Virus record (IMG/VR): IMGVR_UViG_3300046804_002011
Location: 1 to 31,638 of that record
Reading direction: 5' to 3' (one strand)
From: a virus
Length of the DNA stretch: 31,638 nt
Positions 3,651 to 30,773 of this stretch are shown here, one piece after another (position 1 is the stretch's first letter; every line of letters begins with the position of its first letter). A model generated the notes under the pieces. It saw nothing but the letters and a program-made list of their open reading frames with translations. It made no database searches and was not told where the DNA came from. A program made the translations under genes and the position numbers.

Positions 3651-3827
3651 ATGAAAAAATACGCAATGATTCAAATTGATGCCGAAATACATCAAATTTT
3701 GAAGGAGTTTTGTAAAGAGAAAGGATACAAAATAAATGGGTTGGTAGAAACCCTTATAAAAGAAAAGGTAGAAGCTTCAAAGAAACCTCTACCTAAAAAT
3801 ATATTACCAGTAAATTCTAAAAGTTAA
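3651..3827 (+). CDS. Small ribbon-helix-helix (Arc/MetJ-type) DNA-binding protein, candidate
   Basis: A 58-residue frame from the ATG at 3651 to the TAA at 3825-3827. The protein begins MKKYAMIQIDAEIHQILKEF and continues CKEKGYKINGLVETLIKEKV. This gives a short beta strand (YAMIQID), a helix (AEIHQILKEFCKEKG), a turn and a second helix (KINGLVETLIKEKVEA), which is the ribbon-helix-helix pattern, followed by a basic Pro/Lys tail. Such proteins usually bind DNA as dimers and act as repressors or antitoxins. It is the only convincing plus-strand gene in the window. It is divergent from the adhesin and its last 11 bases overlap the convergent end of the gp47/46 gene. The leader is A-rich (taaagaagta before ATG) with no strong ribosome site. 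No toxin partner is visible, so a phage regulator is more likely than an antitoxin. Function is inferred from fold only. Confidence 0.65.
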   Translation: MKKYAMIQIDAEIHQILKEFCKEKGYKINGLVETLIKEKVEASKKPLPKNILPVNSKS

Positions 3828-6800
3828 TTTTAGAAAATCCGTTTTCTTTTTTAATTTCAATCAATCCATCTACAATATCTCTCATTTGTTCTAAGTGAGA
3901 AATAACCCAAATGAAATCAAATTGAGTTTTAAGATATTGCATCATCATAAATAAGGATGATAGGTTATCCGCATCTAATGTACCAAACCCTTCATCTATT
4001 ACTAAGAAGTTAGGTCTAGGAAGTCCGCAAATGTTAATTAGAGCCACTCTAATCGCTAATCCACTAATGAACTTCTCCATACCACTACACATCTCTAAAG
4101 CCCACTCTTGGTCTTCGTAAACGATTTTAGCGTTAATGTTCTTCCCATCAGTATCCATTGAAAGAGAGAAATCTACAACCTGCGCTAAGATATTGTTTAC
4201 TTCGTTCTCAATAACAGGCATTGCTTTGGAAATCAATTCGTATGGAACACCATCTTTCTTAACCGCATCTAAATAGTAAGTGTATAAGGTATTCTTATGT
4301 TCTAATTCTTTAACCTCATCCATCTTATCTTTAGTTGTTTTAATAAAAGATTCAATAGAACCAATAGTTCCAGTTACTGAAAGAATTTGTTTATTTGTAT
4401 CTTTTATTTTCTTTTCAATTTCTTTCTTTTCATCTTCCAACCCTTTGATTTGTTCGTTCAATTCACCATTCTTTTTAATTGTGGCTTCATTATCAAAGTA
4501 ACGTTTCTTATCAGCCTTTACACCTTCTAATTGAGTTTGTAAAAGTTGTGATTGTGTTTCCAATCCATTTAATTCAGCTTCTGCCTTTTCCTTAACCACC
4601 ACACCTCTAGTGTATTTGTTTCTTAATTCAACTAATTTAGCCCAAACATCTTCTACTTCCGAAAATGGTTCGGTTGCTTTGATTAAAGCTTGATGTGCAA
4701 TATTAAGAGTTTCTAATTGAGATTCTTGTGTTTTAACAACTTCTTTAGTTTGAATAGCATCCTTTACGAATACATTGTTCATACAAAACTGACAATTAGG
4801 GTCATACTCATGTTGCTCTAAATGTTTTAGTTTTTCTAAATTAGATTCATATTGAGATTCTAACTTATCTATTTGTTGTTGAACTTCTACAATTTTACCC
4901 TTAGCCAAATCCCACTCCTTCTTAGCTTCATCTATTGGTATTCCGTTTACTTCTGCATGTTCGTTAATAGATTGAGAAACCTCTCCTAATAACCCTATAT
5001 ATTCGTTTATTTTAGCTATTTTAGTTTCCTTATCACTTTCATTGGTTTGGATTTTGCGTTCAATAGTGCTCTCCGCATTCTCTAATGCAACCAAATCCAA
5101 CTTACTATCTATTGGGGTGATGGATTTACTCAATTCCGTAATTTGATTTTGAATCGCATCCTTACTTTCATTCTGCTCCCTTTGGGTTTTGTTAAGTTCT
5201 TTCAGAGTTTCCTTTTGGGACTTCAAGTCGGTTTCTTTTTGGGCTAATTCAGTCGTAAAATCCGTCCTTTTGAAATTTCTGATTAGTGCAGCCACTTCCT
5301 TAATTTCTTCACTAGCCGTTTCATACAGCTTATCAAATATATCCAAGCCCATAAACTGAGCCAACAAGTCCTTTCTCTCCGATTGTGATTTATCAATGAA
5401 TAGAGCATTGTTACCTTGTAGTGATAGGGCAGTCATAACGAAATCCTCATATCTCCCTACATATCCCTCAATGATTTGGTTGGTATCCCTTCTCTCCGTT
5501 CCGTTTAGGGATTCTCTTTCCGTTCCATTGGTTCTCCAAAATTCCACATCTACCTTTACGTTTCTTCCCTTATTAATAGTTCGTGCTTCTCTACGGATTG
5601 AGTATGGAATACCTTCTACTTCAAAATCCAATTGGCAGTGGAAATCACTCTTTCTATTGTTCATAATGTTAGCTGCCTTAAAGGCTCTACTACATCTATC
5701 GAACAGGCAGAAAGAGATTGCATCAAATAGGGATGATTTACCTGCTGCGTTTGGTGCGAATAAGCCCATTAGTCCATTTACTTTGTCAAAATGGATTACA
5801 TTGTCTTCACCGTAACTGAACATATTGGAGAATTCAAATCTTACCGGCTTCCATTGTACGTTTCTTGTCAGCTCATCCAATACTATTCTACTATTAATAT
5901 CTTTGTTTAGTGATTGTACTCCTGCTACATCTTCCGCAGTTGCGAATGGCATCATCCTTTGAATGTAGTCAGATATAAGTGAGTTTTGATAATTTACATC
6001 CGTAATATCTTCTAGCTCTAATTGATTATCTCTATCACCAGTTTTTTTCTTTTGGAAACTATCTGTCCTTATGGTTGTAAAATCATCTACACCATATTTT
6101 ATTTTTATTTCGGTGATTGCTCTTTTTGTATCAACCGCATCGGTATCGGAGAATCTTACCCTAAGCCTTGGATGAACAGGTAAATCAGTAACGTCAGGAA
6201 CAACTCCTGCGATAATATCCATGGTATAATAACCATAATCGTTTTTAATATCAACTTCTTCATATGTTAATGTATCTAAATCCCAAACTAAAAAACCATG
6301 CTTATCTAAGGTTTCTCCAAAGTTTTGTTGTACCAATGAACCAGCGTACACACACTTACATCCTTTAGGTGAAATCAATTCTTGTCTTTTATGTATATCA
6401 CCCAAAAGTGCCAAATGGAAACCATCAAATAAATCGGTTGTGAAATGTCTACTACTTACAACATATCCCACATCGGTTTGTGAATGGTCAACAGGTCCGT
6501 GAAATAGTGCAACTTTTAATCGGGCTGATTGTAAACTAAAATCATCAGCCATTATCCAATTATCTTTGTTATCAAAAATACTGAATACTGAAAATGCTAC
6601 ATCATCTACCCAATGTACCGAAGTATCTTTTAGATATGTAAAGTTAGGTAGGTTAAGAGCTTCTACAATTGGTGAAAGAACATCCAATCGGTCTTGGTTG
6701 TTCATATTACAATCGTGATTACCAGCAATAAGAATTGTTGGACATGTATTTGAACATTCGGTAAATAACCAACTAATCTCTTTCACTAATTCAGGTGACA

Positions 6801-6972
6801 TTTCTAATTTAGCATGTGCAATATCACCTGCCAAATAAATGATTGAATCTTCAGTTCCTCTTTTACGGATTTCTTCAAACATTTTTTCAAATACTTGCCT
6901 AAACTCTTTGTGTCTCTTTACATTACGGATATGTATATCCGCAATATGATAAATTCTTTTTAATTTACTCAT
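3817..6972 (-). CDS. 47/46: Fused recombination nuclease: SbcD/gp47 phosphoesterase plus SbcC/gp46 (Rad50-like) ATPase
   Basis: A 1051-residue protein that joins what T4 encodes as gp47 and gp46. The N-terminal half is a calcineurin-like metallophosphoesterase with DIH (12-14), GD (49-50), GNHD (84-87), FHG (157-159) and GDIH (191-194), the Mre11/SbcD metal ligands. From about residue 375 an SMC/Rad50-type ATPase begins: Walker A APNAAGKS (406-413), a Q-loop segment near LSLQGNN (517-522), a long coiled coil with a CQFC zinc hook (727-730), then signature CSGMEK (962-967), Walker B FLVIDEG (989-995), the D-loop LD and SH of the H-loop (1025-1026). The signature has Met where SGGE/SGGQ has the second Gly. 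By family the complex processes DNA ends for recombination-dependent replication. Its ATG overlaps the primase TGA by four bases, so the two are translationally coupled. Confidence 0.95.
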   Translation of the reverse strand: MSKLKRIYHIADIHIRNVKRHKEFRQVFEKMFEEIRKRGTEDSIIYLAGDIAHAKLEMSPELVKEISWLFTECSNTCPTILIAGNHDCNMNNQDRLDVLSPIVEALNLPNFTYLKDTSVHWVDDVAFSVFSIFDNKDNWIMADDFSLQSARLKVALFHGPVDHSQTDVGYVVSSRHFTTDLFDGFHLALLGDIHKRQELISPKGCKCVYAGSLVQQNFGETLDKHGFLVWDLDTLTYEEVDIKNDYGYYTMDIIAGVVPDVTDLPVHPRLRVRFSDTDAVDTKRAITEIKIKYGVDDFTTIRTDSFQKKKTGDRDNQLELEDITDVNYQNSLISDYIQRMMPFATAEDVAGVQSLNKDINSRIVLDELTRNVQWKPVRFEFSNMFSYGEDNVIHFDKVNGLMGLFAPNAAGKSSLFDAISFCLFDRCSRAFKAANIMNNRKSDFHCQLDFEVEGIPYSIRREARTINKGRNVKVDVEFWRTNGTERESLNGTERRDTNQIIEGYVGRYEDFVMTALSLQGNNALFIDKSQSERKDLLAQFMGLDIFDKLYETASEEIKEVAALIRNFKRTDFTTELAQKETDLKSQKETLKELNKTQREQNESKDAIQNQITELSKSITPIDSKLDLVALENAESTIERKIQTNESDKETKIAKINEYIGLLGEVSQSINEHAEVNGIPIDEAKKEWDLAKGKIVEVQQQIDKLESQYESNLEKLKHLEQHEYDPNCQFCMNNVFVKDAIQTKEVVKTQESQLETLNIAHQALIKATEPFSEVEDVWAKLVELRNKYTRGVVVKEKAEAELNGLETQSQLLQTQLEGVKADKKRYFDNEATIKKNGELNEQIKGLEDEKKEIEKKIKDTNKQILSVTGTIGSIESFIKTTKDKMDEVKELEHKNTLYTYYLDAVKKDGVPYELISKAMPVIENEVNNILAQVVDFSLSMDTDGKNINAKIVYEDQEWALEMCSGMEKFISGLAIRVALINICGLPRPNFLVIDEGFGTLDADNLSSLFMMMQYLKTQFDFIWVISHLEQMRDIVDGLIEIKKENGFSKINF

Positions 6973-8174: not shown

Positions 8175-8582
8175 TTAATATATATCCTTTCGGAAGAATT
8201 TTCCCATTAAATTTTCATTAATAGATTGCGGGTCCATCAAAACATCTAGTTTGAATTGCCACCAAACTTCCCAATATGTAAGTGATTTTTTACTAAAGCA
8301 GAATTGGATGATTTCTCTTTCAAAATCTTCCCCTCTACCTTCTTTTACTTCGTTCTTAATCCATTCGTTTGATGAATAGTATTTCTCCCAATCAGAAGCC
8401 TTACGAACTACTCTTTTACGAACTTTCCCTTTTAGGGGTTTTAATCGGCGGGTTGAAGTGAGTGATTTTTTACCAATATAGAATTTACCAGTTGGAGTGT
8501 GTACAATCTTATAGACAAACCCAACCGCACCCTCTGGTGTATTTTCTTCCGTAACAATATTTCCCTTAAATTTCCAAGACAT
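8175..8582 (-). CDS. GIY-YIG nuclease-like protein (SegE-like)
   Basis: 135 residues with the GIY-YIG core as GFVYKI (about 21-26) and FYIGKK (34-39), then an Arg-rich stretch with STRR and KRVVRK, DWEKYY, and the downstream acidic residue in SLTYWEVWWQF (the usual catalytic Glu). This resembles the free-standing putative endonucleases called SegE-like in T4-type phages. The family cuts DNA, as homing-type endonucleases or in host or competitor DNA damage. Here it sits alone, with no intron next to it, between tail genes and replication genes. It starts four bases after the 69-residue gene ends. The active-site assignment is from pattern only. Confidence 0.75.
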   Translation of the reverse strand: MSWKFKGNIVTEENTPEGAVGFVYKIVHTPTGKFYIGKKSLTSTRRLKPLKGKVRKRVVRKASDWEKYYSSNEWIKNEVKEGRGEDFEREIIQFCFSKKSLTYWEVWWQFKLDVLMDPQSINENLMGKFFRKDIY

Positions 8583-9764: not shown

Positions 9765-10976
9765 TTAGAATGATAATTTTACTTTAATCAATACTTCTTT
9801 ATCAAAAGATTTTACAATTGGTTGAGAAGTTTTAGCTACTGCTATCATTTCATTTGCATCATTGTAAAGACCTACAGTTGTAATGAACGTTTGTGGGTCA
9901 GTTTCGAATGTTGTTTCTTGGAATGTACCATCAGTATTTACATATGTTGGGTTGTTAGAGTAGTTAAACTCTCTATTTGTTGCTCTTACAAAGAAATGTT
10001 GAGTTGATACATCTTCAGTTCTTCTTGCTTCAAAGTCCTTACCATGCTTAATTGCGTAGTATAATCTCTTATGATTATATTGCTCAGTTGCGGTTGATGT
10101 TGCTGGTGTTAAAGTTCCAATAGTTTGGAAAGCTTCATTGAAAACATTACCAACAGTAGTTCCAATTGCTGCAGGATTTAGGATGATTATTCCTTTATCA
10201 GGATAAAATAATCCATATCCCAATCCGTTTGATGCGGTTGTTGATACTACAGTTGCATCGTTTTGAGTTCCTAAATTTAAAGAACCAGATACAACTTTGA
10301 ATACTCTACCAGCTTTACCTAAAGTATCTCCAAACTTCTTACCACTATCATCAATAAAAGTAAATAATCCATTAGAGCCAGAAACTTTAAGTGACCAGTT
10401 TCCTGCATCCATTTCTTCTCTGAATCTTGCTCTAGCAATATTAATTACATAAATATCGTTTGCATTAGTTGCTACACCACTTGCATTTTCAAATTGAAAT
10501 TTAGCGGTTGGGTCATCTAACAACATTGTACGATACTGAGCGTAAGTAGCTTTAGTTGCTAATAATGAATTATCATCAGTTGCTAAATCTACTGAACCAC
10601 TTCCATCAACATGTCCATATGCTACTGCATATTGTACTTCTGCCGAAGAATCACTTGCAGGATTTGCGTTATAAACATTATAATAATATTGTCCGCTTGT
10701 TGCGGTTGCTTGAGTTGATGATGTATAAAATGCTGTTAAAGAACCAGAATCGTTAGTCCACAATCCAGTAGTTACAACTTCAACTTTTGCATTTACTTTA
10801 TCAAAATCTCCAAATCTTTTGTATATTCCTGTTGTAACGCCAGAACCAACTGCGATTTGTTGTCCAGCAGGTAAAACAGAGTTTAATAAAGATACAATTG
10901 TATTTGTATCAATTGTTCCCTGATTTGCCAATGCTGCCAGTTGGGCGGTTACATTAGGGTCATTTATTAGTGCCAT
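9765..10976 (-). CDS. Virion structural protein (403 residues)
   Basis: 403 residues starting MALINDPNVTAQLAALANQG, Ala/Thr/Ser/Gly-rich, with no cysteine cluster and no membrane segment. Its C-terminal block FITTVGLYNDANEMIAVAK...KVKLSF is shared with the 283-residue neighbour, as is FYPDKGIIIL. The composition is more even and less AT-biased in the third position than the tail proteins nearby, and a strong terminator follows the gene; both suggest high expression. Together with the 207-residue gene 14 bases upstream it forms one transcription unit. A major tail or head-surface component is possible, but capsid, sheath or tube motifs are not recognisable, so I leave it as structural. Confidence 0.75.
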   Translation of the reverse strand: MALINDPNVTAQLAALANQGTIDTNTIVSLLNSVLPAGQQIAVGSGVTTGIYKRFGDFDKVNAKVEVVTTGLWTNDSGSLTAFYTSSTQATATSGQYYYNVYNANPASDSSAEVQYAVAYGHVDGSGSVDLATDDNSLLATKATYAQYRTMLLDDPTAKFQFENASGVATNANDIYVINIARARFREEMDAGNWSLKVSGSNGLFTFIDDSGKKFGDTLGKAGRVFKVVSGSLNLGTQNDATVVSTTASNGLGYGLFYPDKGIIILNPAAIGTTVGNVFNEAFQTIGTLTPATSTATEQYNHKRLYYAIKHGKDFEARRTEDVSTQHFFVRATNREFNYSNNPTYVNTDGTFQETTFETDPQTFITTVGLYNDANEMIAVAKTSQPIVKSFDKEVLIKVKLSF

Positions 10977-11674: not shown

Positions 11675-14600
11675 TTAATCCACTTCCAAAATTGGTTCAC
11701 CACTACCTCTACCAGTCTTAGCCACTCTAAGAATGTTAGGATTAGTTGTAAATGTTTCTACTGGGTCTAAACCATCAGGTGTGGTTGCTGCTGTTTGTTG
11801 AGAACCTTTCCAGAATGAACGTAACATACCCTCACCTAAATTATTCGTATAACGATAGTGAGATGGTAAGTATCCATTTAAAGGTGTTACTGAAATGGTA
11901 TTATTACCAACTGCTAAACTTCCACTAAATGGCATCAACGAAACTCTATATTTGTTATATGCAACATTTACATCTTCATATTTTACTTGCTCACCAGCAA
12001 CTGCTCCATTTGTTGGATAACCAGCAGTTTGAGTTGAAACTTTTTTAGTATATTGTTCTTTTACTAAATAAATATTTTGTCTACTTTGTGTATAGTTTCC
12101 AAATATATCATACTTTTTATAAATACCAACACCACCCTTTCCGTATAATCCAAATCCTAAATTTGATATAGAATCTTTTTCCATACCAATAGCCTCAAAA
12201 GTAAATGCATCAGCCTCACCAGTTAATGTAGCTCCAGTTGGTACTGATATTTCTACATCATAAAATGGTGCTTCTGCTTCTAATATTGTTTGGTCTTCTA
12301 CATTTATAGTAGTATTATATGTTGGATATGTACCATCTAAAATTGTACTATTATCAACATTTATAATAGTCTCATAATTATTTAAATCACCAACTAATGT
12401 TGTTATTGTTTCAGCATTTAGTTCTCCATTATAAACATCATAAGAAGATTGTATAGTTACATCATCAAAGGTATTTATTGATGTTTCAAAATTATTTTTT
12501 TCTGCTATTGGTTTATCCCACTTTGTTTTACTTCTCTCTAAATAATGTGGTTCAATAAGTAAACCTTTAGATACCTTTGCTCTAGCAGGTGCTAAATCAG
12601 CCAATACATCAAATAGAGATTTATTTATATATCTTACTAATTGAATATATTCGTTTACATTTCTATCCAATCTTTCAAAATAATATTCTCTTAAATTTTC
12701 CAATTCTTTATATGAATATCTATATTCATCCGATGGGTCACCAATGTAATTATCAATATTAAAATCACCAAAGGCTTTAACAATATCCATATTCAACTCC
12801 TTAATTGGAGAGAAGAATAAACCTAAACGTGATGAATCTATTGGAGCTCTATCAAATGATTTTTTAGTTGCTCTAACTTTATAAGAAAGATTTCCAATAA
12901 GTTCTTGTTCTTCAAATCTAATTTTATTTGAATAATTAAATCCTAAAGATGGAACAGTAGCTGTTACAGTTCTTTCGTATGGGGTGTATTGATATGGATA
13001 TGATGATGCCGAATACATATTACTAGCACTAGCATAAGATTCTCCATATGTTTCGTTAATAGCTACATTTTTAATATATGGGTCTGCGGTTCTATCTTTT
13101 GGATATTCAAAATCTAAACGGAATAAAAGGTCTTCAGTAGAAGCGGTGTATGAATTACCAGCTATTGAATCAGGGTGTAAAACGTGATTGTTAAATTTAG
13201 TTCTTTGTAAAGGAACTCTCCATAAACGGAATTCATCAACATTTCCTACAAATCCATTACCACCAATTTGTAATGAAGAACCACTTATCCATTGAGAATC
13301 TTCAGTAAAGATAGACATACTAACTGAAGTTATAATTCTATTTCCATTTGATGTACCTAACCAAACTTCATAAAGAGAACTATTACCACCATAATCAGTT
13401 CTATTAACACATACATTAGAATAATATTCTGTAGATATTGGGAATTCTAAACTTCCCGTAAATAAATCAGGTCCATAAACATATTCAACTGTTGTTACAA
13501 AATACGGATACCCTGCACCACTTCCACTTAAAATGTAAGGAGAATCGCCCAAATCACCACCAAAGTTTAATTCTAATTTACCAAATGAACCAGTTGTTTG
13601 TACTAAATCCAAAGTCCATTGGCTTGATGAAATTAAAGTATATTGTGTATTTGGTAAAGTTGATGGCTTAAAGTTAAATTCTATTGAAGAAGGTACGTTT
13701 CCATTTACTTCTTTCCAAGGAATTTTTATGCTTGAACTTTGTGTTAAGTAAATTGCCGCTGTTCTATCTTCGAAACTAAAATCTCTAGAACCACCAATAG
13801 TTGGATCTTGAGGTCCACCAAATTCCATAATAGTTAAAAGAGATTGTGGCACACCATAACAAGCCATTATAGCTTTCATAGCTCTAGCAGTACCTTTGTG
13901 TTTTAACAAATATGGTAAGTTATTTATAATTCTTCTCCAAACTTGATTGTTAGCTTCTTCTAAAGGCATTGAAAATGCAGTATTACCATCTCTCTTTAAT
14001 CCAAAAGCATATTCCCAAATAAATTGTGAATCGTAAGCTCTTTTAGCATCCCATCCCATTGATTTTAATAAATGCCATATTAAATCATCAGGAACACCCA
14101 AATCAGTTTTTTCTTCAACTACTCTTACTCTATTTAAAGCGTTTATGTATGACCAAATAATATCAAAATGTTGTCCAATCATATCTAAGAACAACAAAAA
14201 CTGAGAATTGTCCACATCCGAATAAATAAATTCTGGAATGTTATTTATCAGATAATTTGCATTATATTTGTCATAGTATTCAGCTTCTTGTACTAAATTT
14301 TCATACCAAGCTGTTACTTCTGCACTATTTGATAATTTTAATATGTAAACTGGGACTCCATTTGGTAAAACTAAAATTTCTTTTGGATATGCTAAAGAAT
14401 CTAAAGATGAGTACATCCATTTTTCAAATCCATCTAAGTTTCTCAATAAAAGATTTAATTCATTTAAAACTCTTTTTGCTTCATTAGCTTCTGGAACTGC
14501 GTTAAAATATTGAATTTCATACTGAATATCAAATGCACCATCTTCGGTTACGAATTGGTATCCATCTATTGTTAAATAAGATTCATGTGAACCAGTTGCT

Positions 14601-16849
14601 TCAGTAAGAATTGTACCAACTGGGAATGATGGTGGTGTTATTAAAGTTTCGTACCTTACTTTTAAAGTTTCAATTAATTTAGCTTTATAAAAGAAATTTT
14701 TAGCTCTTTCTGCAGCAGAACCAAAATGTGAAAAGTTTTCAAATGTATATACCGAACCACTTTGGTATTGTATATTTAATTTATTTGTATCTATTCCACT
14801 TTTCTCTAAAAATCTATTTGCGATTGCATCCGAAGTTAAAGAACCACTAGCTACTAAATCTTCAAAAATTGTATATCCAATACCATTATCAGGTTCTAAA
14901 CTAAAATTTGGTCCTTTAAGTGGTGGACACAAATCAGATTCCACACCAGTAATTGTTATAGTTTCAAGAATTGGATTTGATTGTATTTTTGAAATCCATA
15001 CTTGCTGATTTGGTTGTATTGCGGTTGTTACAGGTTCATATAATTTTAAAATTAAAGATTCTCTATCACCAACCCAAGTTGTTATAATTTTATTATCACC
15101 ACCGCCTAAATGAAGAAGATGTGTTAAATATTTTGAATTTTCTTCAGCAAATACAGAAGAATCTAGTTGATTTATAAATCCTTCTACTAATCTATTAATT
15201 GCAACATTTCTTGGTAATACTTTTTTGCTTTTTTCAAAATTAATTGTTATTAATTCATCTTTACCAGAAATTACTTCTTGTCCACTTGTGTTATATGGAG
15301 TTAATATAAGACTTAATTGAACAATATCTTTTGATGTATCAATATTTGTTGAAGCTGCTAATTCTAATAACTTTTTAAAATTAAATGTTATCGAACCTGC
15401 TGCTTGTGCTTTTGTAGACGTTGTTAAACCCAATGGTTTAATTAAAACATAATCAGTATTTACCGATTGCCATGCAATATCAAAATCTACATCAAATCCT
15501 ACAAAATCTTTTCCTTTAATATTTTGTGGAAAAACTATATTTCTTATATCAGGAGTACCAACATAAACTTTGTTTACAACATTTATTTTACATTCTATTG
15601 GTTCACTATCACCATCTGCATTAGATGCAACTATTATAACTCTATAAACACCAATCGAAGTAAAATATTTTTCAGGTATTAAAACTACTGCTGCATTTCC
15701 TCTTACAGTTTCCCAAGGATTTCCAAATTCAATTGTTTGGTTATTTAATAAAACTCTTAATGAAGAAACATCACCAATTTTTGTCAATCCTATTGCAACA
15801 CCAGATTTTGTATTAATATTATATTCTGCCAAATCATTTACATTTACAAATGCAATTGATGGTGGTGCTAAGGTTATTGGTGTAATGTTATTAGTATTAA
15901 TTTCAATACCAATACCTTCTGTTAATACAAATTCAGTGGTTACACTTTCTAATGAATTTTGAGCTTCAATATTGTTTTTATTTTCACCCGTAACAATTAT
16001 TGAACTAATTCTAAAATTTTCTAAATTAGAAGATGCTATTTTTATTTTTGTACCTGAAGGATATTTAAAATCATTTATACCTCTATTTAATTCTACTCTA
16101 TCCGTATTATTTACAATCAATATAGAAGATACATTATCTCCATTTAAGCTTACACTTACAGGAAATAAATTTTCTTTTGGTAATTCTTCATCCGATGGAA
16201 TATCTTTTGGATTTTTAATTTGTAGATTAGAAAATAATAATTCTCTTACTTGATTATTGACATCATAATCATAAGGTGTTTGGATATTATTTTCGTATTT
16301 TGTTATTCTAAGTGTATAAGCTGGTTCTCCTACATAAACAGGATCCATTAATCTCTTAGCTGTTATATCTGAGTTAAATGTTGGTACACCAAATCTATCA
16401 AATTGATTATATGTATTATCAATTGGTGTTAAATTTCTTATAAAAGAATCGTCTTGATAATATTTTGGAGTAAATAAAACTTCAATTAAATATTTTTCAT
16501 TTGTTGTATAACCCTCTTTTTGAATAGTAATTGTATATCCACCATTTTTAATAACATCATCTACACTTATACTTAATCTATCAGGAGTTAATTTAAATGT
16601 ATTTTCTCCATTTAAATAAATTGATGCGTTATCCACATTTGATGCAACTCTAAAAAAATAAGTTGGTGCATAATTTGCAGTACCAACCAAATCTTGAGAT
16701 TTATCAATTTTGATAGGAGCATTGGTGGATGGGTTTTTTATAAAAACATCACCATCAGAATTTATACCACCTTCCAATGGTGTTAAAAATTCTAGCTTCT
16801 GAGAATCCGATTTTGGTTCTAAACTATCTTCTATATCTATTAATCTCAT
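11675..16849 (-). CDS. Giant baseplate/tail protein with tail-protein-I-like and LamG-like regions
   Basis: 1724 residues starting MRLIDIEDSLEPKSDSQKLE. The first ~870 residues are beta-rich with several Ig-like strands. Around 880-1015 is a helical region (MIGQHFDIIWSYINAL, LLKSMGWDAKRAYDS, NNLPYLLKHKGTARAMKAIM, then ACYGVPQSLLTIMEFGG), which resembles the tail-protein-I/gp7-type element of contractile baseplates. About 1025-1255 looks like a LamG/concanavalin-like fold (SSIKIPWKEV ... GNGFVGNVDEFRLWRVPL). About 1490-1545 holds three short beta repeats. The C-terminus is Gly/Tyr-rich (GFGLYGKGGVGIYKKYDIFG). A role in the baseplate wedge, linking baseplate to fibres, fits its position after gp25 and gp6. 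It starts nine bases after the 439-residue gene ends. The I-like assignment is by pattern and gene order, not by search. Confidence 0.7.
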   Translation of the reverse strand: MRLIDIEDSLEPKSDSQKLEFLTPLEGGINSDGDVFIKNPSTNAPIKIDKSQDLVGTANYAPTYFFRVASNVDNASIYLNGENTFKLTPDRLSISVDDVIKNGGYTITIQKEGYTTNEKYLIEVLFTPKYYQDDSFIRNLTPIDNTYNQFDRFGVPTFNSDITAKRLMDPVYVGEPAYTLRITKYENNIQTPYDYDVNNQVRELLFSNLQIKNPKDIPSDEELPKENLFPVSVSLNGDNVSSILIVNNTDRVELNRGINDFKYPSGTKIKIASSNLENFRISSIIVTGENKNNIEAQNSLESVTTEFVLTEGIGIEINTNNITPITLAPPSIAFVNVNDLAEYNINTKSGVAIGLTKIGDVSSLRVLLNNQTIEFGNPWETVRGNAAVVLIPEKYFTSIGVYRVIIVASNADGDSEPIECKINVVNKVYVGTPDIRNIVFPQNIKGKDFVGFDVDFDIAWQSVNTDYVLIKPLGLTTSTKAQAAGSITFNFKKLLELAASTNIDTSKDIVQLSLILTPYNTSGQEVISGKDELITINFEKSKKVLPRNVAINRLVEGFINQLDSSVFAEENSKYLTHLLHLGGGDNKIITTWVGDRESLILKLYEPVTTAIQPNQQVWISKIQSNPILETITITGVESDLCPPLKGPNFSLEPDNGIGYTIFEDLVASGSLTSDAIANRFLEKSGIDTNKLNIQYQSGSVYTFENFSHFGSAAERAKNFFYKAKLIETLKVRYETLITPPSFPVGTILTEATGSHESYLTIDGYQFVTEDGAFDIQYEIQYFNAVPEANEAKRVLNELNLLLRNLDGFEKWMYSSLDSLAYPKEILVLPNGVPVYILKLSNSAEVTAWYENLVQEAEYYDKYNANYLINNIPEFIYSDVDNSQFLLFLDMIGQHFDIIWSYINALNRVRVVEEKTDLGVPDDLIWHLLKSMGWDAKRAYDSQFIWEYAFGLKRDGNTAFSMPLEEANNQVWRRIINNLPYLLKHKGTARAMKAIMACYGVPQSLLTIMEFGGPQDPTIGGSRDFSFEDRTAAIYLTQSSSIKIPWKEVNGNVPSSIEFNFKPSTLPNTQYTLISSSQWTLDLVQTTGSFGKLELNFGGDLGDSPYILSGSGAGYPYFVTTVEYVYGPDLFTGSLEFPISTEYYSNVCVNRTDYGGNSSLYEVWLGTSNGNRIITSVSMSIFTEDSQWISGSSLQIGGNGFVGNVDEFRLWRVPLQRTKFNNHVLHPDSIAGNSYTASTEDLLFRLDFEYPKDRTADPYIKNVAINETYGESYASASNMYSASSYPYQYTPYERTVTATVPSLGFNYSNKIRFEEQELIGNLSYKVRATKKSFDRAPIDSSRLGLFFSPIKELNMDIVKAFGDFNIDNYIGDPSDEYRYSYKELENLREYYFERLDRNVNEYIQLVRYINKSLFDVLADLAPARAKVSKGLLIEPHYLERSKTKWDKPIAEKNNFETSINTFDDVTIQSSYDVYNGELNAETITTLVGDLNNYETIINVDNSTILDGTYPTYNTTINVEDQTILEAEAPFYDVEISVPTGATLTGEADAFTFEAIGMEKDSISNLGFGLYGKGGVGIYKKYDIFGNYTQSRQNIYLVKEQYTKKVSTQTAGYPTNGAVAGEQVKYEDVNVAYNKYRVSLMPFSGSLAVGNNTISVTPLNGYLPSHYRYTNNLGEGMLRSFWKGSQQTAATTPDGLDPVETFTTNPNILRVAKTGRGSGEPILEVD
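12217..12382 (-). repeat. Three short beta repeats inside the giant tail protein (approximate bounds)
   Basis: Three consecutive units of about 19-20 residues: NNYETIINVDNSTILDGTYP, TYNTTINVEDQTILEAEAP and FYDVEISVPTGATLTGEA. The shared pattern is Y-x-x-x-I-x-V-x-x-x-(T/A)-(I/L). Regular short beta units like these often build beta-prism or beta-helix stems in trimeric fibres. Confidence 0.55.
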
Positions 16850-23269: not shown

Positions 23270-24253
23270 TTATACCTTATCTGTATAAAATCCCCAATAT
23301 TCCCAATGCCACATCTCATCAACACCATTACCATCTGCCAATCTATATGGATTATACCATCCATATTTAGGCGCATTATTGGATAGCCATCTATATAAAG
23401 ATGATGTTTCTCTACCTTGTTTATTAACACTAGGTACACCACTACCACCAACTGCTCTATACAATTCACCAAAATCTAATGCCAATCCCCAACCATGTGG
23501 AGATTTACCAGCTTTAGCTATTGTAGAACCACTACCCAAAGAACTTTGATGTGATACACTTCTATAAGCAGATGTTATTGTCCATCCAATACCAGCAGCT
23601 TTTGCAGCTGCTTTAAGTTTAAAATATTGGTTTGCTGCTTCTGGATGTAGTAAATACCAACCGCCCGTACCTTTGTATGTATATTCTGCCCTACCACCCT
23701 TTTCAACACCAATCATAGTATCTGATGGTAAAGTTCCATTTTCGTATTTACCTTTCCAATCAGGTGGTGCTGAAACTCCAATAGCTCCAACTTGAGCAAA
23801 TATTTTAGCTGGCGGGCCACTTTCTATCTTTTTTAAATTTTCAGTTGAAGGTTGTTTTTCTTCTGGTTTAAAATCGGTAGGTGGTTCACCTTGTATCGGA
23901 GTGGGTGCTGATCTTGGTGCGTAATCAAAATTTGTTGTAGCTTGTTCGGCTGGTTTTGCTTCTATTTTTTTATCACTATCTACCTTACCATTATTTTTTT
24001 CATGCTCATCCACACCCTTTCCTTCTGATTCTGGTGAATCATCCGATGGTGGTATTTGTGGCGATGGTGTTGATGGTGTTACTGTATAACCAGACCAAAT
24101 AACCACACCTGGTCCAGGAGTTGGTACAGGTACAGTTGGATATAATGATATTGTTGAAGCTACTCCCGAAACCGTAGTTAAATGTTGGGTTGCATATTGA
24201 ATAAAATCATCAATTATTAAAGAAGTATTTTTGGTAGGGTCTATTATTGACAT
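23270..24253 (-). CDS. Tail-associated M15-type peptidoglycan peptidase (VanY/D-Ala-D-Ala carboxypeptidase-like)
   Basis: 327 residues. The first ~145 are Pro/Glu/Lys-rich and probably an extended linker. The C-terminal domain (about 185-327) has the LAS/M15 signature: SAYRSVSHQ (228-236), S251-P-H253-GWGLAL-D260, and E313-M-W-H316-W-E-Y-W. H253, D260 and H316 are the expected zinc ligands and E313 the likely general base, so it looks catalytically intact. The family cleaves peptide stems of the cell wall. There is no signal peptide, and it lies among tail-tip genes after a gp5-like spike, so the best reading is a virion enzyme that opens the wall during DNA entry rather than a lysis endolysin. 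Lysis use cannot be excluded. Confidence 0.85.
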   Translation of the reverse strand: MSIIDPTKNTSLIIDDFIQYATQHLTTVSGVASTISLYPTVPVPTPGPGVVIWSGYTVTPSTPSPQIPPSDDSPESEGKGVDEHEKNNGKVDSDKKIEAKPAEQATTNFDYAPRSAPTPIQGEPPTDFKPEEKQPSTENLKKIESGPPAKIFAQVGAIGVSAPPDWKGKYENGTLPSDTMIGVEKGGRAEYTYKGTGGWYLLHPEAANQYFKLKAAAKAAGIGWTITSAYRSVSHQSSLGSGSTIAKAGKSPHGWGLALDFGELYRAVGGSGVPSVNKQGRETSSLYRWLSNNAPKYGWYNPYRLADGNGVDEMWHWEYWGFYTDKV

Positions 24254-24263
24254 AACTTAAATA

Positions 24264-25529
24264 TTATTCATATATTGAAACGTGCATTGGGTCAAAACTT
24301 TTTAACCAAGTCATTCCCTCATTTTGAAAAACTTTAGCTACTTCCAAAAATCCCAAATCAAAATCATTAAAATCTCTAGTTTTATCTTTTCCCTTATATA
24401 TACCATCAGAACCAAATTTAGTCCCTATCGGATATATTTCAGCATTCATATCAATTGCCAATCCCCAGCTGTGGTTTGATAGTCTTACACCATTTGTTAC
24501 ATTTCTTATTGCTAACCCACCTGAACAAGTTTTTATAAATTTATTTAATCCTTTCGCTTTTATTTTTTTAAAAGCAGGTTCTGCAATTATTTTTAATTGC
24601 TTATGAACTAAAATAGAAGCTTCTCCATTTGCTAAAGGAACTGTGAGGGTTGTACAATTTTTTCGTATATATTCCTCATTTTGTACCCACCAAACTCTTA
24701 CTCCCTTTCCTTTAGTTTCTTGTAAATATTGGTTTATTTCATCAGATGTTGTCAATTGTTTCTTTTTATACCAACTTTCTGTTTTTGTAGTTTTAATATC
24801 CACCACAAAATTTCCATATTCTCCCTTTGCCGGCCATAATCCATTTCCAACTTTATCAAACAATTTTTTATCACCCTTAACCGGGTCAATTTTTGGTTTT
24901 GGTTTTTCATCTTGCTCATCTTTTTCAACATCAGATGTATCGGATGTAGTATCTTGTCCCAAATCTCTTTTATATTCTATAACATCTTGTTGTATTTGTG
25001 TTGGTGTTGGAAGTCTATCATCGTAAACAACTATTGTTGTTTTAAATAAATCATCATATGTTTTTTTAGATTCTTTATACTTTTCAAAATCTTTTTTGAT
25101 AGTGTTATCAAGATCTTTATTTGGTGGTGCTGGTGCAACTTGTTGTGGTGGAGTCCATTGTCCTACATTTGTTACTACATTTGATAAAGTGCTTATGTTT
25201 GCCGTTGAACCCGGTGCAGGTATTATTGGTGGTGGTAATTCATTTAGTGTTGCACCTGTCCAATAGGCTTGAACTGCTTTTCCTAATTCACCAACTAAAT
25301 CGTATGGTTGTTTTGATGATTGTCCTTTTAATAAAGCTGCATAAAAAAGTTCTTCCATTAATTCTGTATTTCCTTTTTTAACTTTTACAAAATTAACGGT
25401 ATCGTATCCTCTTTTTATTGCCGCATCATATTCTTTTGTCCATAATTTGGCAACACTCCTTAAATCAGGTAAAGAGTTTGGATTGTTAGAATATTTTAAT
25501 ATATTTGCCTTAAATACAGCCCAAGACAT
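24264..25529 (-). CDS. Second M15-type peptidase-like tail protein
   Basis: 421 residues. The N-terminal ~90 residues are helical (MSWAVFKANILKYSNNPNSL, LWTKEYDAAIKRGYDTV), then there is a charged Pro/Asp/Lys linker (about 95-225). The C-terminal domain has S351-N-H353-SWGLAI-D360-MN and D413-P-M-H416, matching SxHxxGxAxD and the final His of M15 enzymes, with Asp at the usual acidic position. GGLAIRNVTNGVRL precedes them where the Arg-containing block of the family lies. Its catalytic half is not a close copy of the 327-residue protein, so the two are diverged relatives of different subtypes. It starts three bases after the glycine-zipper gene ends and probably acts with it at the tail tip. 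Confidence 0.78.
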   Translation of the reverse strand: MSWAVFKANILKYSNNPNSLPDLRSVAKLWTKEYDAAIKRGYDTVNFVKVKKGNTELMEELFYAALLKGQSSKQPYDLVGELGKAVQAYWTGATLNELPPPIIPAPGSTANISTLSNVVTNVGQWTPPQQVAPAPPNKDLDNTIKKDFEKYKESKKTYDDLFKTTIVVYDDRLPTPTQIQQDVIEYKRDLGQDTTSDTSDVEKDEQDEKPKPKIDPVKGDKKLFDKVGNGLWPAKGEYGNFVVDIKTTKTESWYKKKQLTTSDEINQYLQETKGKGVRVWWVQNEEYIRKNCTTLTVPLANGEASILVHKQLKIIAEPAFKKIKAKGLNKFIKTCSGGLAIRNVTNGVRLSNHSWGLAIDMNAEIYPIGTKFGSDGIYKGKDKTRDFNDFDLGFLEVAKVFQNEGMTWLKSFDPMHVSIYE

Positions 25530-27890: not shown

Positions 27891-28709
27891 TTAGGATTCA
27901 AGCTTTCTAACCTGTATTTTTATCTTCGGTTGATAATCTTTTGGTAGTTCATTTCTAACCCCTTCGAATGATTCTACTTTATCCGCAAAATACTCAATTT
28001 CTAATATTCTATCGGTAAGATTCATTATAGTTTGAGAAGATGTAAACATATCTTTAGCCTGTCTTCTCATATTCAATTGTGATTCTTTTGGGAAGAACTC
28101 CTTTCTCATAGCCTGTGCTATTTGTGTCCAATCCGTTACCTTTTCAACAGTCTTTTCAGCACTTATCTTTCTCATTTTAGATGAAAGATATTTTTCGCCA
28201 TGTGTATATCCAGCATCAGTAAATACATGTCCATGATTTGTTCTAACTACCGGATGTTCAGTATTGTGAAGTTTTACATCAGGTTTGTGTTTAGATGTTG
28301 CTTCTACACTAATCATATGTTTTGGTGAAGATATAAATGTATGTCCTTTTAAAGAAAGATTTGATTTACTCTTATATGTTAAACAAGCAACCAATGCTTT
28401 TTTAAGAGTTGGCTGTTTAATAATATTTCTCATCTTATCACCATCAGGTCCAGGTTTACCAACTTTTTTAACTAACTTTTTTTCAGCTTCATCATGTCCA
28501 ACTAAAAGAGCCGCATTTACAACACCAATACCATTAGCATTCATACCTTCGCTCCAATCGGTAATCATATCATGTAGATATGCTACTTCAATACCATCTA
28601 TAATAGTATGAACCACTTCTAGTTTTGGTTTGTAAGCTCTATCTCTATTTTTAGCTAAGATAAACTTATCTCCAACTTCTTTGGATACAATAATACATTC
28701 GTTTATCAT
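27891..28709 (-). CDS. Ntn-hydrolase-like enzyme (choloylglycine hydrolase / acyl-transferase type)
   Basis: 272 residues starting MINECIIVSKEVGDKFILAK. The pattern is that of cysteine N-terminal-nucleophile amide hydrolases: Cys near the N-terminus (Cys5), N21-R22-D23 at the end of the second strand, EGMNANGIGVVN (54-65), which matches the G(M/L)N-x-x-G-(L/I)-x-V block, and VVRTNHGH further on, like the TNH block of the acyl-transferase branch. The family cleaves linear C-N amide bonds after the residues before Cys are removed. Here those residues are M-I-N-E, which ends in I-x-E, a T4-type prohead-protease site. It is the last gene of the 31423-27891 operon and overlaps the gene before it by four bases (ATGA). 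The substrate is unknown. Confidence 0.65.
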   Translation of the reverse strand: MINECIIVSKEVGDKFILAKNRDRAYKPKLEVVHTIIDGIEVAYLHDMITDWSEGMNANGIGVVNAALLVGHDEAEKKLVKKVGKPGPDGDKMRNIIKQPTLKKALVACLTYKSKSNLSLKGHTFISSPKHMISVEATSKHKPDVKLHNTEHPVVRTNHGHVFTDAGYTHGEKYLSSKMRKISAEKTVEKVTDWTQIAQAMRKEFFPKESQLNMRRQAKDMFTSSQTIMNLTDRILEIEYFADKVESFEGVRNELPKDYQPKIKIQVRKLES

Positions 28710-29284
28710 ATGGTTGGTAATCCTTGTTGTTGTGCAAATTTATTTATAAACTTTTTTGTAGTACCATCATTTAATACATCAGCCCATTCCTTAACCGCAT
28801 CCCTAGTTATATTATTTTTCCATTGTTTGTAACTTATTGTTAGTCCGTTTTTTAATGGAATATCTTTACTATTTTCATTTTTGTCTGGATGTATTTCTTT
28901 GAATGTTTTTTCTAATTCGTCTTGTGCTATTTTGGAACTTAACCATTTACTAACCAAAGATTTTTCATATTGAAATTTATCCCAAAGTAAATTTGTTTTT
29001 TTCATAGATTTATTGGTATCTTTTAATTTTTCTACTTCTACATCAAACTCTTTTATTTTTTTATCATTTTTAAGTGTAAAGTAAACATATTTATTAAAAT
29101 TAGTATTGTTACCAATTCTATCTAACCATTTTATATGTGGTTCTTGTGTATAATTTTTATATTCGGATTTATTTCTGATACCTCTTATGACATTACTAAT
29201 TACAAATATAGCCAGATTTACAAATAGCCATGTTACAGCTTCTTGTACAAAATTTTCTTTGATTAATGATTTTAACTTTATCAT
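28706..29284 (-). CDS. Putative capsid-targeted protein with a membrane-like segment
   Basis: 192 residues from the ATG at 29282-29284. A longer reading from 29371 would overlap the upstream gene by 86 bases; this start is one base after that gene's stop and restores the shared N-terminal peptide MIKLKSLIKE. A hydrophobic segment follows (about 15-36: AVTWLFVNLAIFVISNVIRG), then a charged helical domain (LKDTNKSMKKTNLLWDKFQY, DELEKTFKEIHPDKNENSKD) and a C-terminal DAVKEWADVLNDGTTKKFIN. If the first ten residues are cut after Glu10, the mature protein would begin close to the hydrophobic segment. The function is unknown; packaging in the head is inferred from the peptide, and membrane association from the hydrophobic run. 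Confidence 0.7.
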   Translation of the reverse strand: MIKLKSLIKENFVQEAVTWLFVNLAIFVISNVIRGIRNKSEYKNYTQEPHIKWLDRIGNNTNFNKYVYFTLKNDKKIKEFDVEVEKLKDTNKSMKKTNLLWDKFQYEKSLVSKWLSSKIAQDELEKTFKEIHPDKNENSKDIPLKNGLTISYKQWKNNITRDAVKEWADVLNDGTTKKFINKFAQQQGLPTI

Positions 29285-29285
29285 A

Positions 29286-29933
29286 TTATTTACAGGTTTT
29301 CCAACCACCACCTTTTGATTTGTAATTTTTTGCAGCCCATCCATTTGCATAAGCTGATGGATATACATCAAACTTACTTTTTGCTGCTGCTTTAGATGCT
29401 GACCACTTTTCTGGGTCAGTTGGACAATTCTTTTCTAAAAATAATTCAAGTGCTTCTTCTACCAATTCATTCTTTTTTCTACCCTGACAATGTGCTTTTT
29501 GAGAAAATCCCTTTGGGTTATTACAATCAATAGAACGTTTATACTTCTGACTCCATTTTTCTTCTATGTTCTCAGATGTTTTTGCTTTTTTAATAGCTTG
29601 AGATTGTTTAAAGTTATTCATAGTTTGAGTAATAACTTTAATTTGGTTTTTTTGTAATTTAACTGTATCTGAATTTTTGTCTTCTGCTTTTGCTATTTTA
29701 TCTTTTATCTTTTGAATTCTTTCTTTGTATTTAGAAATTCTTTCATTTGGTGTTACATGATGATGTTCTTTTACATCATCTTTTTTTGGTTTTTCTTTTT
29801 TAAAAGGATTAGGATTTTCTTTACTACCTCTAAAATCCCAAGCAAATTCATGCTTTTCAGGATTTACTTTTTTGACATCGTACTTCTTACCTGTTTCTTT
29901 ATTTTTTACTAATATGTCAATTAATTTTATCAT
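29286..29933 (-). CDS. Putative capsid-targeted Lys-rich, Cys-containing protein
   Basis: 215 residues starting MIKLIDILVKNKETGKKYDV. The N-terminus follows the shared cassette peptide but has Lys instead of Glu at position 10, so cleavage there is doubtful. The middle is a very Lys-rich coiled coil (ISKYKERIQKIKDKIAKAED). After that come two small modules: KYKRSIDCNNPKGFSQKAHC with QGRKK, and CPTDPEKWSASKAAAKSKFD then VYPSAYANGWAAKNYKSKGG. Both recur in small proteins of T4-like phages, and the second resembles a module I also associate with large algal viruses. Four Cys might bind metal or stabilise the modules. Basic character would suit DNA contact in the head. The stop and the next start are one base apart. 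Confidence 0.7.
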   Translation of the reverse strand: MIKLIDILVKNKETGKKYDVKKVNPEKHEFAWDFRGSKENPNPFKKEKPKKDDVKEHHHVTPNERISKYKERIQKIKDKIAKAEDKNSDTVKLQKNQIKVITQTMNNFKQSQAIKKAKTSENIEEKWSQKYKRSIDCNNPKGFSQKAHCQGRKKNELVEEALELFLEKNCPTDPEKWSASKAAAKSKFDVYPSAYANGWAAKNYKSKGGGWKTCK

Positions 29934-30118
29934 TTCTCTTTTTTAGGTATTCTAAAAGTTACTGCCTTTTTTCCATTTATCGTTGGCATTCCATATTCAT
30001 CTTTTCCTATGGATTTTACAACAACTTTTTTGTTTTTAAATTTACCCATTAAGATTGTATCGCCAACCTTAATATCAAGTTTAATTTCTTCATTCAATAT
30101 TTTTGATAACCTAATCAT
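29930..30118 (-). CDS. Putative capsid-targeted small beta-barrel protein
   Basis: 62 residues: MIRLSKILNEEIKLDIKVGD, then a compact beta domain (ILMGKFKNKKVVVKSIGKDE, YGMPTINGKKAVTFRIPKKE) that looks SH3/KOW-like. L8-N9-E10 fits a prohead-protease site, which would leave a mature protein of about 52 residues consisting of the barrel. The barrel sequence is one I have seen in small proteins of T4-like phages, with no known function. The ATG is coupled to the previous stop and its TGA overlaps the next ATG (ATGA). Confidence 0.7.
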   Translation of the reverse strand: MIRLSKILNEEIKLDIKVGDTILMGKFKNKKVVVKSIGKDEYGMPTINGKKAVTFRIPKKEK

Positions 30119-30432
30119 TACGCACCTGTTTTTACAAATGTTGGTTTTTGACCTTTTGATTGTTCACCACCTTTTTTAGCATCACCTGCTTTTGATTGAG
30201 CTGCTCTTTTTCTCTTTACAAATGCTGCTCTACCATCAGGTCCTAACTTATCTGCTTTTTCTTTTGATAAACATGCTGCGTATGCTGAACCTTCTTTACT
30301 ATCCCCACACTTACCTACTTTCTCTCCCTTTGTATTATATCTATCCCAACCCCCACCAGTAGTAGAACCAGTCTTACCTTTACCAAACCATTTACGAAGG
30401 TCTTCTGCTAATATATCTTTTAGAAGTATCAC
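30118..30432 (-). CDS. Putative capsid-targeted small basic protein, GTG start
   Basis: 104 residues with a GTG start at 30430-30432, chosen because it yields the conserved N-terminal peptide MILLKDILAE and overlaps the previous stop as TAGTG. L8-A9-E10 is a potential cleavage site. The rest is WFGKGKTG, GGGWDRYNTKGEKVGKCGDS, then SAYAACLSKEKADKLGPDGR and a basic tail VKRKRAAQSKAGDAKKGGEQ. The WDRYN-x-x-GEK-x-GKCG...CLS...RKR arrangement is a module widespread in phage and algal-virus small proteins, with no function known to me. The strong positive charge is consistent with DNA binding inside the capsid. Function inferred from composition only. Confidence 0.72.
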   Translation of the reverse strand: MILLKDILAEDLRKWFGKGKTGSTTGGGWDRYNTKGEKVGKCGDSKEGSAYAACLSKEKADKLGPDGRAAFVKRKRAAQSKAGDAKKGGEQSKGQKPTFVKTGA

Positions 30433-30773
30433 TATCCAATATAGCAGTTTAGTTCAAATTCATTTTGACCACCAAACATACTTCTTGTTTTAGAACCATC
30501 TAAGTTTCTTTTGAAAGTTCCCATATTATACACTTGAATGTGTAATTGCTTTCTTTGTGGTTTTCCACCTTTTGTTAAACTAATAGAAAATCTATTTGTT
30601 TTACCTTCGGATGGTTTTTTTGGCCCCATTCCTATTTCTCTTGCAATTTCTTCATCATCCATTTGATATCCAGACTTTTTAGCCCAGTCTAATGCTGAGT
30701 TAATAGCCGATGTATATGTTTTATGATATATCGGAAATTTTGCTTCTGTTAATAATGCTTTTAAACTTATCAT
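30432..30773 (-). CDS. Putative capsid-targeted 113-residue protein
   Basis: 113 residues starting MISLKALLTEAKFPIYHKTY. L8-T9-E10 is a candidate prohead-protease site. After it comes an alpha/beta domain (SAINSALDWAKKSGYQMDDE, EIAREIGMGPKKPSEGKTNR, then FSISLTKGGKPQRKQLHIQV and FELNCYIG). The GKTNR-x-S-(I/V)-x-LTK-x-GKPQRK block is one I recall from small proteins of T4-like phages. It is the second gene of the operon, coupled to the membrane-anchored protein upstream and to the GTG-start gene downstream. The molecular function is unknown. Confidence 0.72.
   Translation of the reverse strand: MISLKALLTEAKFPIYHKTYTSAINSALDWAKKSGYQMDDEEIAREIGMGPKKPSEGKTNRFSISLTKGGKPQRKQLHIQVYNMGTFKRNLDGSKTRSMFGGQNEFELNCYIG

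Follow-up and report, generated by a model that had tools for sequence, protein, structure and literature searches.

Small protein cargo of phage heads is classically known from T4, where an N-terminal capsid-targeting sequence (CTS) brings such proteins into the head and the gp21 protease processes them. The first ten residues of the T4 internal protein IPIII suffice for packing, with residues 4 and 7 mainly needed for targeting and residues 8 and 10 for processing; gp21 cuts after L/I-x-E, and an Asp at position 10 blocks processing while it still allows targeting, as set out in the parts of PMC9026906 on which we draw. Here we describe a comparable system in the IMG/VR record IMGVR_UViG_3300046804_002011, a fragment of a virus of bacteria that was analysed over its whole length of 31,638 bases (the window). 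The window contains five genes, coding for proteins A to E, with a common ten-residue N-terminal tag, and directly next to them the gene of an N-terminal nucleophile (Ntn) hydrolase. It is highly probable that this region encodes cargo for the interior of the phage head, which would be imported by means of the tag, cut by an S77 (gp21-type) prohead protease, in the case of the Ntn hydrolase activated by the cut, stored in the head and probably delivered. The sequence patterns support head targeting and cleavage well, and for the injection together with the DNA we infer by analogy to T4 that it is the likely fate of the cargo.

The tagged cassette and the prohead protease

The preliminary description of this DNA had pointed to five consecutive genes at 28706-30773 that share an N-terminal peptide, and five open reading frames (ORFs) indeed follow there nearly end to end on the minus strand, on which all cassette features lie. 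Protein A (28706-29284, 192 residues) is basic and has the tag MIKLKSLIKE (29255-29284) and a hydrophobic segment near its N-terminus; an alternative TTG start would make it 29 residues longer, and its homologues in the loci L222 and L238 bear a nearly identical tag. Protein B (29286-29933, 215 residues) is a polyprotein with the CTS-like start MIKLIDIL (first ten residues MIKLIDILVK, 29904-29933). Protein C (29930-30118, 62 residues) consists of the tag MIRLSKILNE (30089-30118) and a small basic domain, whereas the basic protein D (30118-30432, 104 residues, GTG start, tag MILLKDILAE at 30403-30432) contains two Cys and is related to a cyanophage protein annotated DUF6321. Protein E (30432-30773, 113 residues, tag MISLKALLTE at 30744-30773) has an alpha/beta domain, and in its AlphaFold2 (AF2) model (pLDDT 81.9) the tag residues 1-9 are below 50, i.e. 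disordered. No PDB entry matched this fold with E < 0.001, and the best viral structure match, to a part of a 1134-residue phage protein named Acb1, was too weak to be used (E 0.09).

All five tags agree with the T4 CTS at positions 4, 7 and 8, and four of them also at position 10, so that the Leu or Ile at position 8 with Glu at position 10, which had been noted for four of the five proteins (A, C, D and E), is correct. The set of five genes, all of which are real, was nevertheless drawn too narrowly, as the adjoining Ntn hydrolase gene (27891-28709) belongs to the cassette; the six proteins together have 62-272 residues and pI values of 9.4-10.1. Likewise, the statement that unrelated domains follow the tag is right for the five window proteins taken by themselves, but relatives combine the modules inside single polyproteins. 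A search for further genes with the pattern had also been suggested, and canonical tags occur in 167 loci. Three or more are present in 63 loci, a number that includes overlapping contigs, and there are 24 distinct gene orders, some of which are shortened versions of others. Single-linkage clustering gave 46 tagged families, an unclean count that contains false tags (from an internal Met in a tail protein and from ORFs on the reverse strand or of low complexity) and a cluster of 102 members joined by shared modules.

Among the 26 gene starts of the window, hydrophobic residues at positions 4, 7 and 8 occur exactly in A to E, the other 21 giving no match, and at the rate of internal ATGs four full matches in 26 starts would have a probability of about 3e-8 (binomial, calculated by hand). 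In the pooled loci, considering ORFs with 100 or more residues, 106 of 2627 first ATGs showed the full pattern, as did 14 of 11907 internal ATGs, a ratio that is inflated because part of these loci had been fetched via protein D; the loci fetched without protein D (the window, tail-gene loci, S77 hits and tiled relatives) contain 54 distinct tagged proteins, some of them with false tags. These rates, together with the shifted-boundary control described below, rule out a chance origin of the tag and of the joints. In proteins C, D and E, the only hydrophobic-x-E triplet is the one that ends at residue 10.

For capsid targeting with gp21-type cleavage, as proposed in the preliminary description, the follow-up speaks in several ways: S77 proteases are encoded in relatives, and hydrophobic-x-E occurs at module joints, before the Cys of the Ntn hydrolases and in the N-terminal region of the capsid proteins. 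The cleavage rule itself needs to be relaxed, since the Glu at P1 of the assumed (L/I)-x-E fits, whereas P3 can be V, M or F as well. The prohead protease, for which a search had been suggested, is not encoded in the 31.6-kb fragment but in 14 of 28 larger related records: PF03420 (S77, gp21-type) scored above its cut-off in three of eight tail-gene relatives, namely the three longest, as well as in 11 of 20 larger records with a protein D relative. The nine records of the latter group without S77 also have no gp23 capsid gene and thus seem to lack the head region, while gp23 was present in all three S77-bearing records tested. Seven distinct full-length capsid proteins (eight rows, as that of Flavobacterium phage immuto appears twice) keep a hydrophobic-x-E|A near residue 60, in the forms LDE|A, VSE|A, VTE|A and VVE|A. 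This conserved motif is a putative capsid cleavage site, and it makes hydrophobic-x-E a plausible cutting rule in this group of phages.

The tagged proteins could alternatively be parts of the prohead core or scaffold which, as is the case for T4 gp67 and gp68, are cut into pieces and lost from the head, without any delivery. An identical tag and identical sites would be expected in that case, and in one relative (G003) a tagged protein with an acidic N-terminal part (14444-14881) is encoded about 4 kb from the S77 gene (9908-10348), just as an acidic core-like protein of immuto adjoins its protease. The cassette of the window, however, lies among tail genes, its proteins are basic with the pI values given above, and its content varies between relatives, whereas more constancy would be expected of a core part. 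Moreover, tagged proteins of relatives are enzyme-like (DHH, lysozyme, cytidylyltransferase, AAT/C45), so that a mere core function is unlikely, albeit the most serious of the alternatives.

As to the nature of the cargo, the tagged proteins of relatives match DHH (below its Pfam cut-off), DUF2608, phage-lysozyme, LRR and cytidylyltransferase/GNAT families, and AAT/C45-type proteins are found among them as well. In one locus (L214:9125-9934), a PF00959 phage-lysozyme match begins straight after the head tag MIRLKPLLTE, which makes a lysozyme a possible head cargo. For the window proteins, Pfam and PHROG scans named no anti-defence family; the family names IPI, IPII and IPIII are absent from the Pfam and PHROG matches up to E 0.1, no direct comparison having been made, and protein A had no match in phage records at E 0.01.

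An Ntn hydrolase behind a predicted cleavage site

The gene at 27891-28709 encodes a C45-like Ntn hydrolase precursor of 272 residues, in which the leader MINE is followed by Cys5. Foldseek matched the AF2 model (pLDDT 86.3) best to 2x1c_A, an acyl-CoA:isopenicillin N acyltransferase (IAT; E 8.3e-8), and in the VIA comparison the model aligned with NAAA (6dy2_B) with a Z of 19.4 and 3.3 Å over 200 residues. Cys5 is the first aligned residue in most VIA rows, and it aligns on residue 2 of bile salt hydrolases (BSH), residue 1 of penicillin V acylases (PVA), residue 126 of human NAAA, residue 103 of IAT and residue 143 of acid ceramidase. The nucleophile status of the residues in BSH, PVA and NAAA is evident from the titles of the entries (C126A, Cys2Ala, Cys1Ser), and we take residue 103 of IAT and residue 143 of acid ceramidase to be the nucleophiles of these enzymes. 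All 18 relatives aligned have kept Cys5. A PDB sequence search with the Ntn profile returned flavodoxin rows only (E 0.29 or worse), and a profile scan of bacterial genome contigs for homologues matched 27 stretches, none of which is a relative.

The leader ends in a predicted prohead-protease site, I-N-E|C (28698-28709), and a hydrophobic-x-E before the Cys is conserved. Hits with less than 200 residues past the Cys were dropped (such as L217 at a contig end), and one Cys-less hit, L283, begins past the site; of the resulting 131 distinct mature homologues, 128 have hydrophobic-x-E directly before the Cys, three have Met-Cys, and none has anything else. At P1, Glu occupies all 128 sites, P3 is L in 74, I in 46, V in 6, F in 1 and M in 1, and P2 varies. 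These numbers are based on 95 distinct contexts of the last eight leader residues, and single-linkage clustering at 70% identity resulted in 20 clusters, 17 with hydrophobic-x-E and three with M|C. In all other respects the leaders are diverse: they range from MINE, MKLSE, MSKPVTE, MDFLEKQNLVE and MKNLVRSILNE...LIKE to a polyprotein of 341 residues (L395), several have a CTS-like stretch ahead of the predicted cut, and in L395, L396 and L397 the Ntn copy forms the end of a longer polypeptide. The position of hydrophobic-x-E right before the nucleophile means that a prohead cleavage would uncover the catalytic residue. In the simplest reading of these sequences, the Cys must be freed, and either methionine aminopeptidase or the head protease would do so. 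An isolate, Chryseobacterium phage MA9V-1, has such an Ntn gene with a leader ending FLNE|C; its description lists a prohead core serine protease and reports an SDS gel, with no mass spectrometry in the text seen (PMC10537231).

Could the enzyme be autoproteolytic like ordinary C45 enzymes and release its Cys by itself, with a leader that is no substrate of the head protease? The NCBIfam model NF040521 (C45_proenzyme), which names the family autoproteolytic, matches 13 of the 18 relatives at E up to 1, and precursor as well as mature structures exist for the nearest fold match (2x1c, 2x1d). Yet protein residues 13-234 align with positions 101-311 of this model, and as the alignment starts only from position 101, the long pro-region of the C45 family is missing; in place of this self-cleaved region, there is a leader of four residues. 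Autoproteolysis would also leave unexplained why P1 is Glu and P3 hydrophobic in 128 of 128 cases whatever the leader, with Met-Cys as sole alternative, why several leaders contain the CTS-like stretch and why some copies end longer polypeptides. We therefore regard self-activation as quite improbable.

Module joints, polyproteins and the proposed mechanism

Relatives of protein D often sit inside longer proteins that are built of exchangeable modules, including a zinc-ribbon-like piece, the D module, KWSQKYKxSIxC, an AYANGWAAK piece, a C-like piece and others. Such polyproteins reach 1506 residues in relatives and share modules in mosaic order, whereas in the window only protein B is built in this way, a construction that the preliminary description had not noticed. 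The zinc-ribbon module had no match in phage records at E 0.001. We took modules located right behind a canonical N-terminal tag and looked for them inside other ORFs, keeping queries with canonical ATG/GTG tags and alignments that begin at module residue 1, are ungapped over the first ten positions and have at least 20 residues upstream. This resulted in 108 sites with 72 distinct contexts, and 46 more sites with an upstream that is itself tag-like were set aside. The motif [LIVMF]xE stands exactly before the module in 61 of the 72 contexts, with Glu at P1 in 64, while the background frequency of hydrophobic-x-E is 2.0% of triplets. When the boundary was shifted, there were nine matches at -4, two at -3, none at -2, -1, +1, +2 and +4, and seven at +3, the latter being Ntn rows that were aligned three residues early. 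This register shift also accounts for seven of the 11 non-fitting joints, and the others are one misaligned row and three real exceptions.

In protein B, the CTS-like start is followed by modules with the sequences HHHVTPNERISK.., KWSQKYKRSIDC.. and ..AYANGWAAK, the boundaries of which match tag-following modules of relatives. Two cleavage sites are predicted at these boundaries, VKE56|HHH (VKE56|HHHVTPNERISK, 29766-29774) and IEE125|KWS (IEE125|KWSQKYKRSIDC, 29559-29567); the first module occurs elsewhere as MIRLTNILLE|HRHQTPNERISK (77%) and the second as MIKLTDIINE|KWSQKYKR (100% over the aligned stretch). The module of protein C is embedded elsewhere after LSE, ISE and INE and once after the non-fitting INKE, and that of protein E after IKE, VTE, VSE, ITE and INE (contexts ESIKE, ESVTE, KVVSE and STINE). 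Isolated phages have the same type of joint in the cyanophage T4-GC_119 proteins (S-BM3, S-SM2_109) and in the similar genes SfCH8_72, S-SRM01 and S-CAM9 gp114; S-SM2_108 begins with MKTLKQFLKE, and in the Methylophilales phage Melnitz (gene 20) an E-type module is preceded by MDE. Tag-like starts are also seen in immuto, where genes 41 and 177 begin with MIKLIDLLTE and MISIYNILKE.

Hydrophobic-x-E could in principle be a mere linker or helix-cap preference at domain joints of polyproteins that are packed uncut, as the material in PMC5512222 describes for the N4 virion RNA polymerase, a multidomain protein that is packed without processing. For a linker preference, however, the motif is positioned too exactly, being absent one or two residues to either side; it is found again in the N-terminal tag and ahead of the nucleophile Cys, in the latter case often without any preceding domain, and gp21 follows a cleavage rule of this P3-x-P1 form, which together make this idea very improbable. 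No better stands an uncleaved N-terminal signal of another kind, such as a membrane- or tail-binding helix, for which the amphipathic look of the peptide, the hydrophobic segment after the tag in protein A and the adjoining tail genes might speak, but which leaves E10, the motif at internal joints and the Ntn leaders unexplained and disregards the agreement with the T4 CTS at positions 4, 7, 8 and 10.

If the region encodes head cargo, the T4 precedent and the sequence rules suggest that the N-terminal capsid-targeting peptide takes each precursor into the prohead core, where S77 would cut after hydrophobic-x-E, i.e. at residue 10 in A, C, D and E and at the internal joints in B. The cuts would release separate small basic modules, likewise from the longer polyproteins of relatives. 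Cleavage at I-N-E|C would strip the Ntn leader and, judging from the position of the cut, expose the N-terminal Cys nucleophile, so that this enzyme would gain its activity only in the prohead. After their release, the proteins would be retained alongside the DNA inside the head and probably accompany it into the next host, and due to the activation inside the prohead the Ntn hydrolase would be off in the producing cell and on upon reaching the next cell. One may speculate, from T4 Alt and IPI, that the cargo serves the take-over of the host or counter-defence. More generally, we find it reasonable to expect that head assembly acts as activation switch and as polyprotein-processing factory for effector modules under one head tag in a wider range of T4-like phages.

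Several observations weigh against the head-cargo mechanism. PF03420 was not found in the window, which is explained by the fact that the window is a fragment, and the gp23 test covered D-type records, with five S77-less tail-gene relatives outside it. The literature search found no virion proteomics of any close relative. Protein B has no E10; as Asp10 blocks processing yet permits targeting in T4, a place in the head is still possible for it. The three joints that truly deviate are INKE (twice) and IYKE, and two DWS joints have RNE or ANE (L205, L212). Hydrophobic-x-E triplets also occur inside folded domains, protein A for example having five in total, and further ones are found in the same N-terminal region of the capsid proteins, so that a lone triplet proves nothing. 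The window Ntn protein scores 20.6 bits on NF040521, for which the NCBIfam cut-off is 85. Finally, the Met-Cys homologues (L007, L040, L458) need no head protease, and head-gated activation is thus not universal in the family; these proteins offer a natural contrast to the forms with leaders.

Genomic setting and comparison with described systems

The fragment encodes baseplate, primase and recombination-nuclease proteins, with the long ORFs on the minus strand, and the surroundings of the cassette are tail genes. Its gp6-like baseplate protein has 43.6% identity to the counterpart in Microcystis phage Mel-JY01 and 39.8% to that in immuto. At 3817-6972, a protein of 1051 residues resembles SbcD at its N-terminus (phrog_100) and SbcC in the remainder (phrog_77), which suggests a fused gp47/gp46-type nuclease. 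The top PHROG match at 8175-8582 is phrog_447 "NAD synthetase", but homing endonuclease families match as well, and the protein start (GFVYKIVHTPTGKFYIGKKS) looks GIY-YIG-like by eye, so that the name of phrog_447 may be a carried-over error. An adjacent gene pair in the tail region at 23270-25529 has similar ends (HGWGLALDFGE, HSWGLAIDMNAE), by eye suggestive of two M15-type peptidases. An Rfam scan gave no match that reached the gathering score.

Among the polyproteins of relatives there are giants of 945-1506 residues (L090:14097-18566, L104:4750-7584, L167:486-5003) with a cytidylyltransferase-like start (PF01467) and many hydrophobic-x-E triplets; one of them has a GNAT match and another DUF5661, L167 contains by eye an HExxH-like stretch, and in G001 a distance of about 8 kb separates the giant cytidylyltransferase gene from that of S77. 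A link of the giant cytidylyltransferase to cyanophage T4-GC190, the protein of which is contained in S-SM1 virions according to the text consulted (PMC3037559), was dropped, as the five tblastn records include no Synechococcus or Prochlorococcus phage; Mel-JY01 is the only phage of cyanobacteria among them. Modular hypothetical proteins of cyanophages (L464-L468) share a C-terminal module that ends in SLRAWNC (S-BM3, S-SM2, Sf-CH8, S-CAM9) or ARKRWNC (S-SRM01).

The tag and the hydrophobic-x-E joints form a rule that can be read from the sequence alone and picks out likely head cargo. It applies to widely sampled phages, with at least 578 D-type stretches in IMG/VR, and to many hypothetical proteins including cyanophage T4-GC_119, and it makes the long-open question of what phages carry into the cell with their DNA testable. 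In the literature searched, outside of which were preprints and most subscription papers, we found no precedent for cargo polyproteins with prohead-protease joints, nor for an Ntn hydrolase that is activated by a prohead cut, which is weak evidence of novelty. If true, the uncovering of a nucleophile by a capsid protease would represent a kind of zymogen control for which we found no example in this literature, and the exchangeable modules would be a natural source of parts for protein delivery via phage heads.

With IAT, NAAA and acid ceramidase, the Ntn hydrolase shares the fold and an N-terminal Cys at the equivalent place, but it lacks the long pro-region of C45 enzymes and has instead a leader of four to a few tens of residues that ends in hydrophobic-x-E. 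Giant phages of the SPN3US type also pack many ejection proteins with their DNA, and some of these are cut by a gp21-like protease after a short motif that ends in Glu; that protease, however, uses A-x-E, and apart from the protease itself, all cuts identified in the account considered here (PMC10052503) remove N-terminal propeptides, and it describes no comparable module joints. The polyvalent proteins of phages and conjugative elements are multidomain proteins of mosaic order as well, many of which are predicted to be packed and delivered, but the sections at hand of PMC5512222 ascribe their processing to their own metallopeptidase domains, not to prohead-protease joints, and describe no ten-residue head tag. 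Cyanophage proteins of the T4-GC_119 kind have D-like, KYKxSIxC, AYANGWAAK and CWxGY-type modules with hydrophobic-x-E between many of them; they differ in being one or two long proteins, annotated as hypothetical or DUF6321; in S-SM2 and Sf-CH8 their genes are flanked by gp16 and gp17, and in S-BM3 and S-SRM01 they follow the gene of the small terminase. Most similar are the T4 proteins IPI-IPIII and Alt, with a ten-residue tag in which positions 4, 7, 8 and 10 are key, small basic proteins and a variable cargo, as far as described in the portions used of PMC9026906, and with an S77 protease that is here found in relatives. In contrast to the T4 internal proteins, the cargo modules described here are also joined into polyproteins with sites at the joints, P3 can be V, M or F, up to seven tagged genes occur per locus (L165), and the cassette includes an Ntn hydrolase with an active residue that the predicted cut would uncover.

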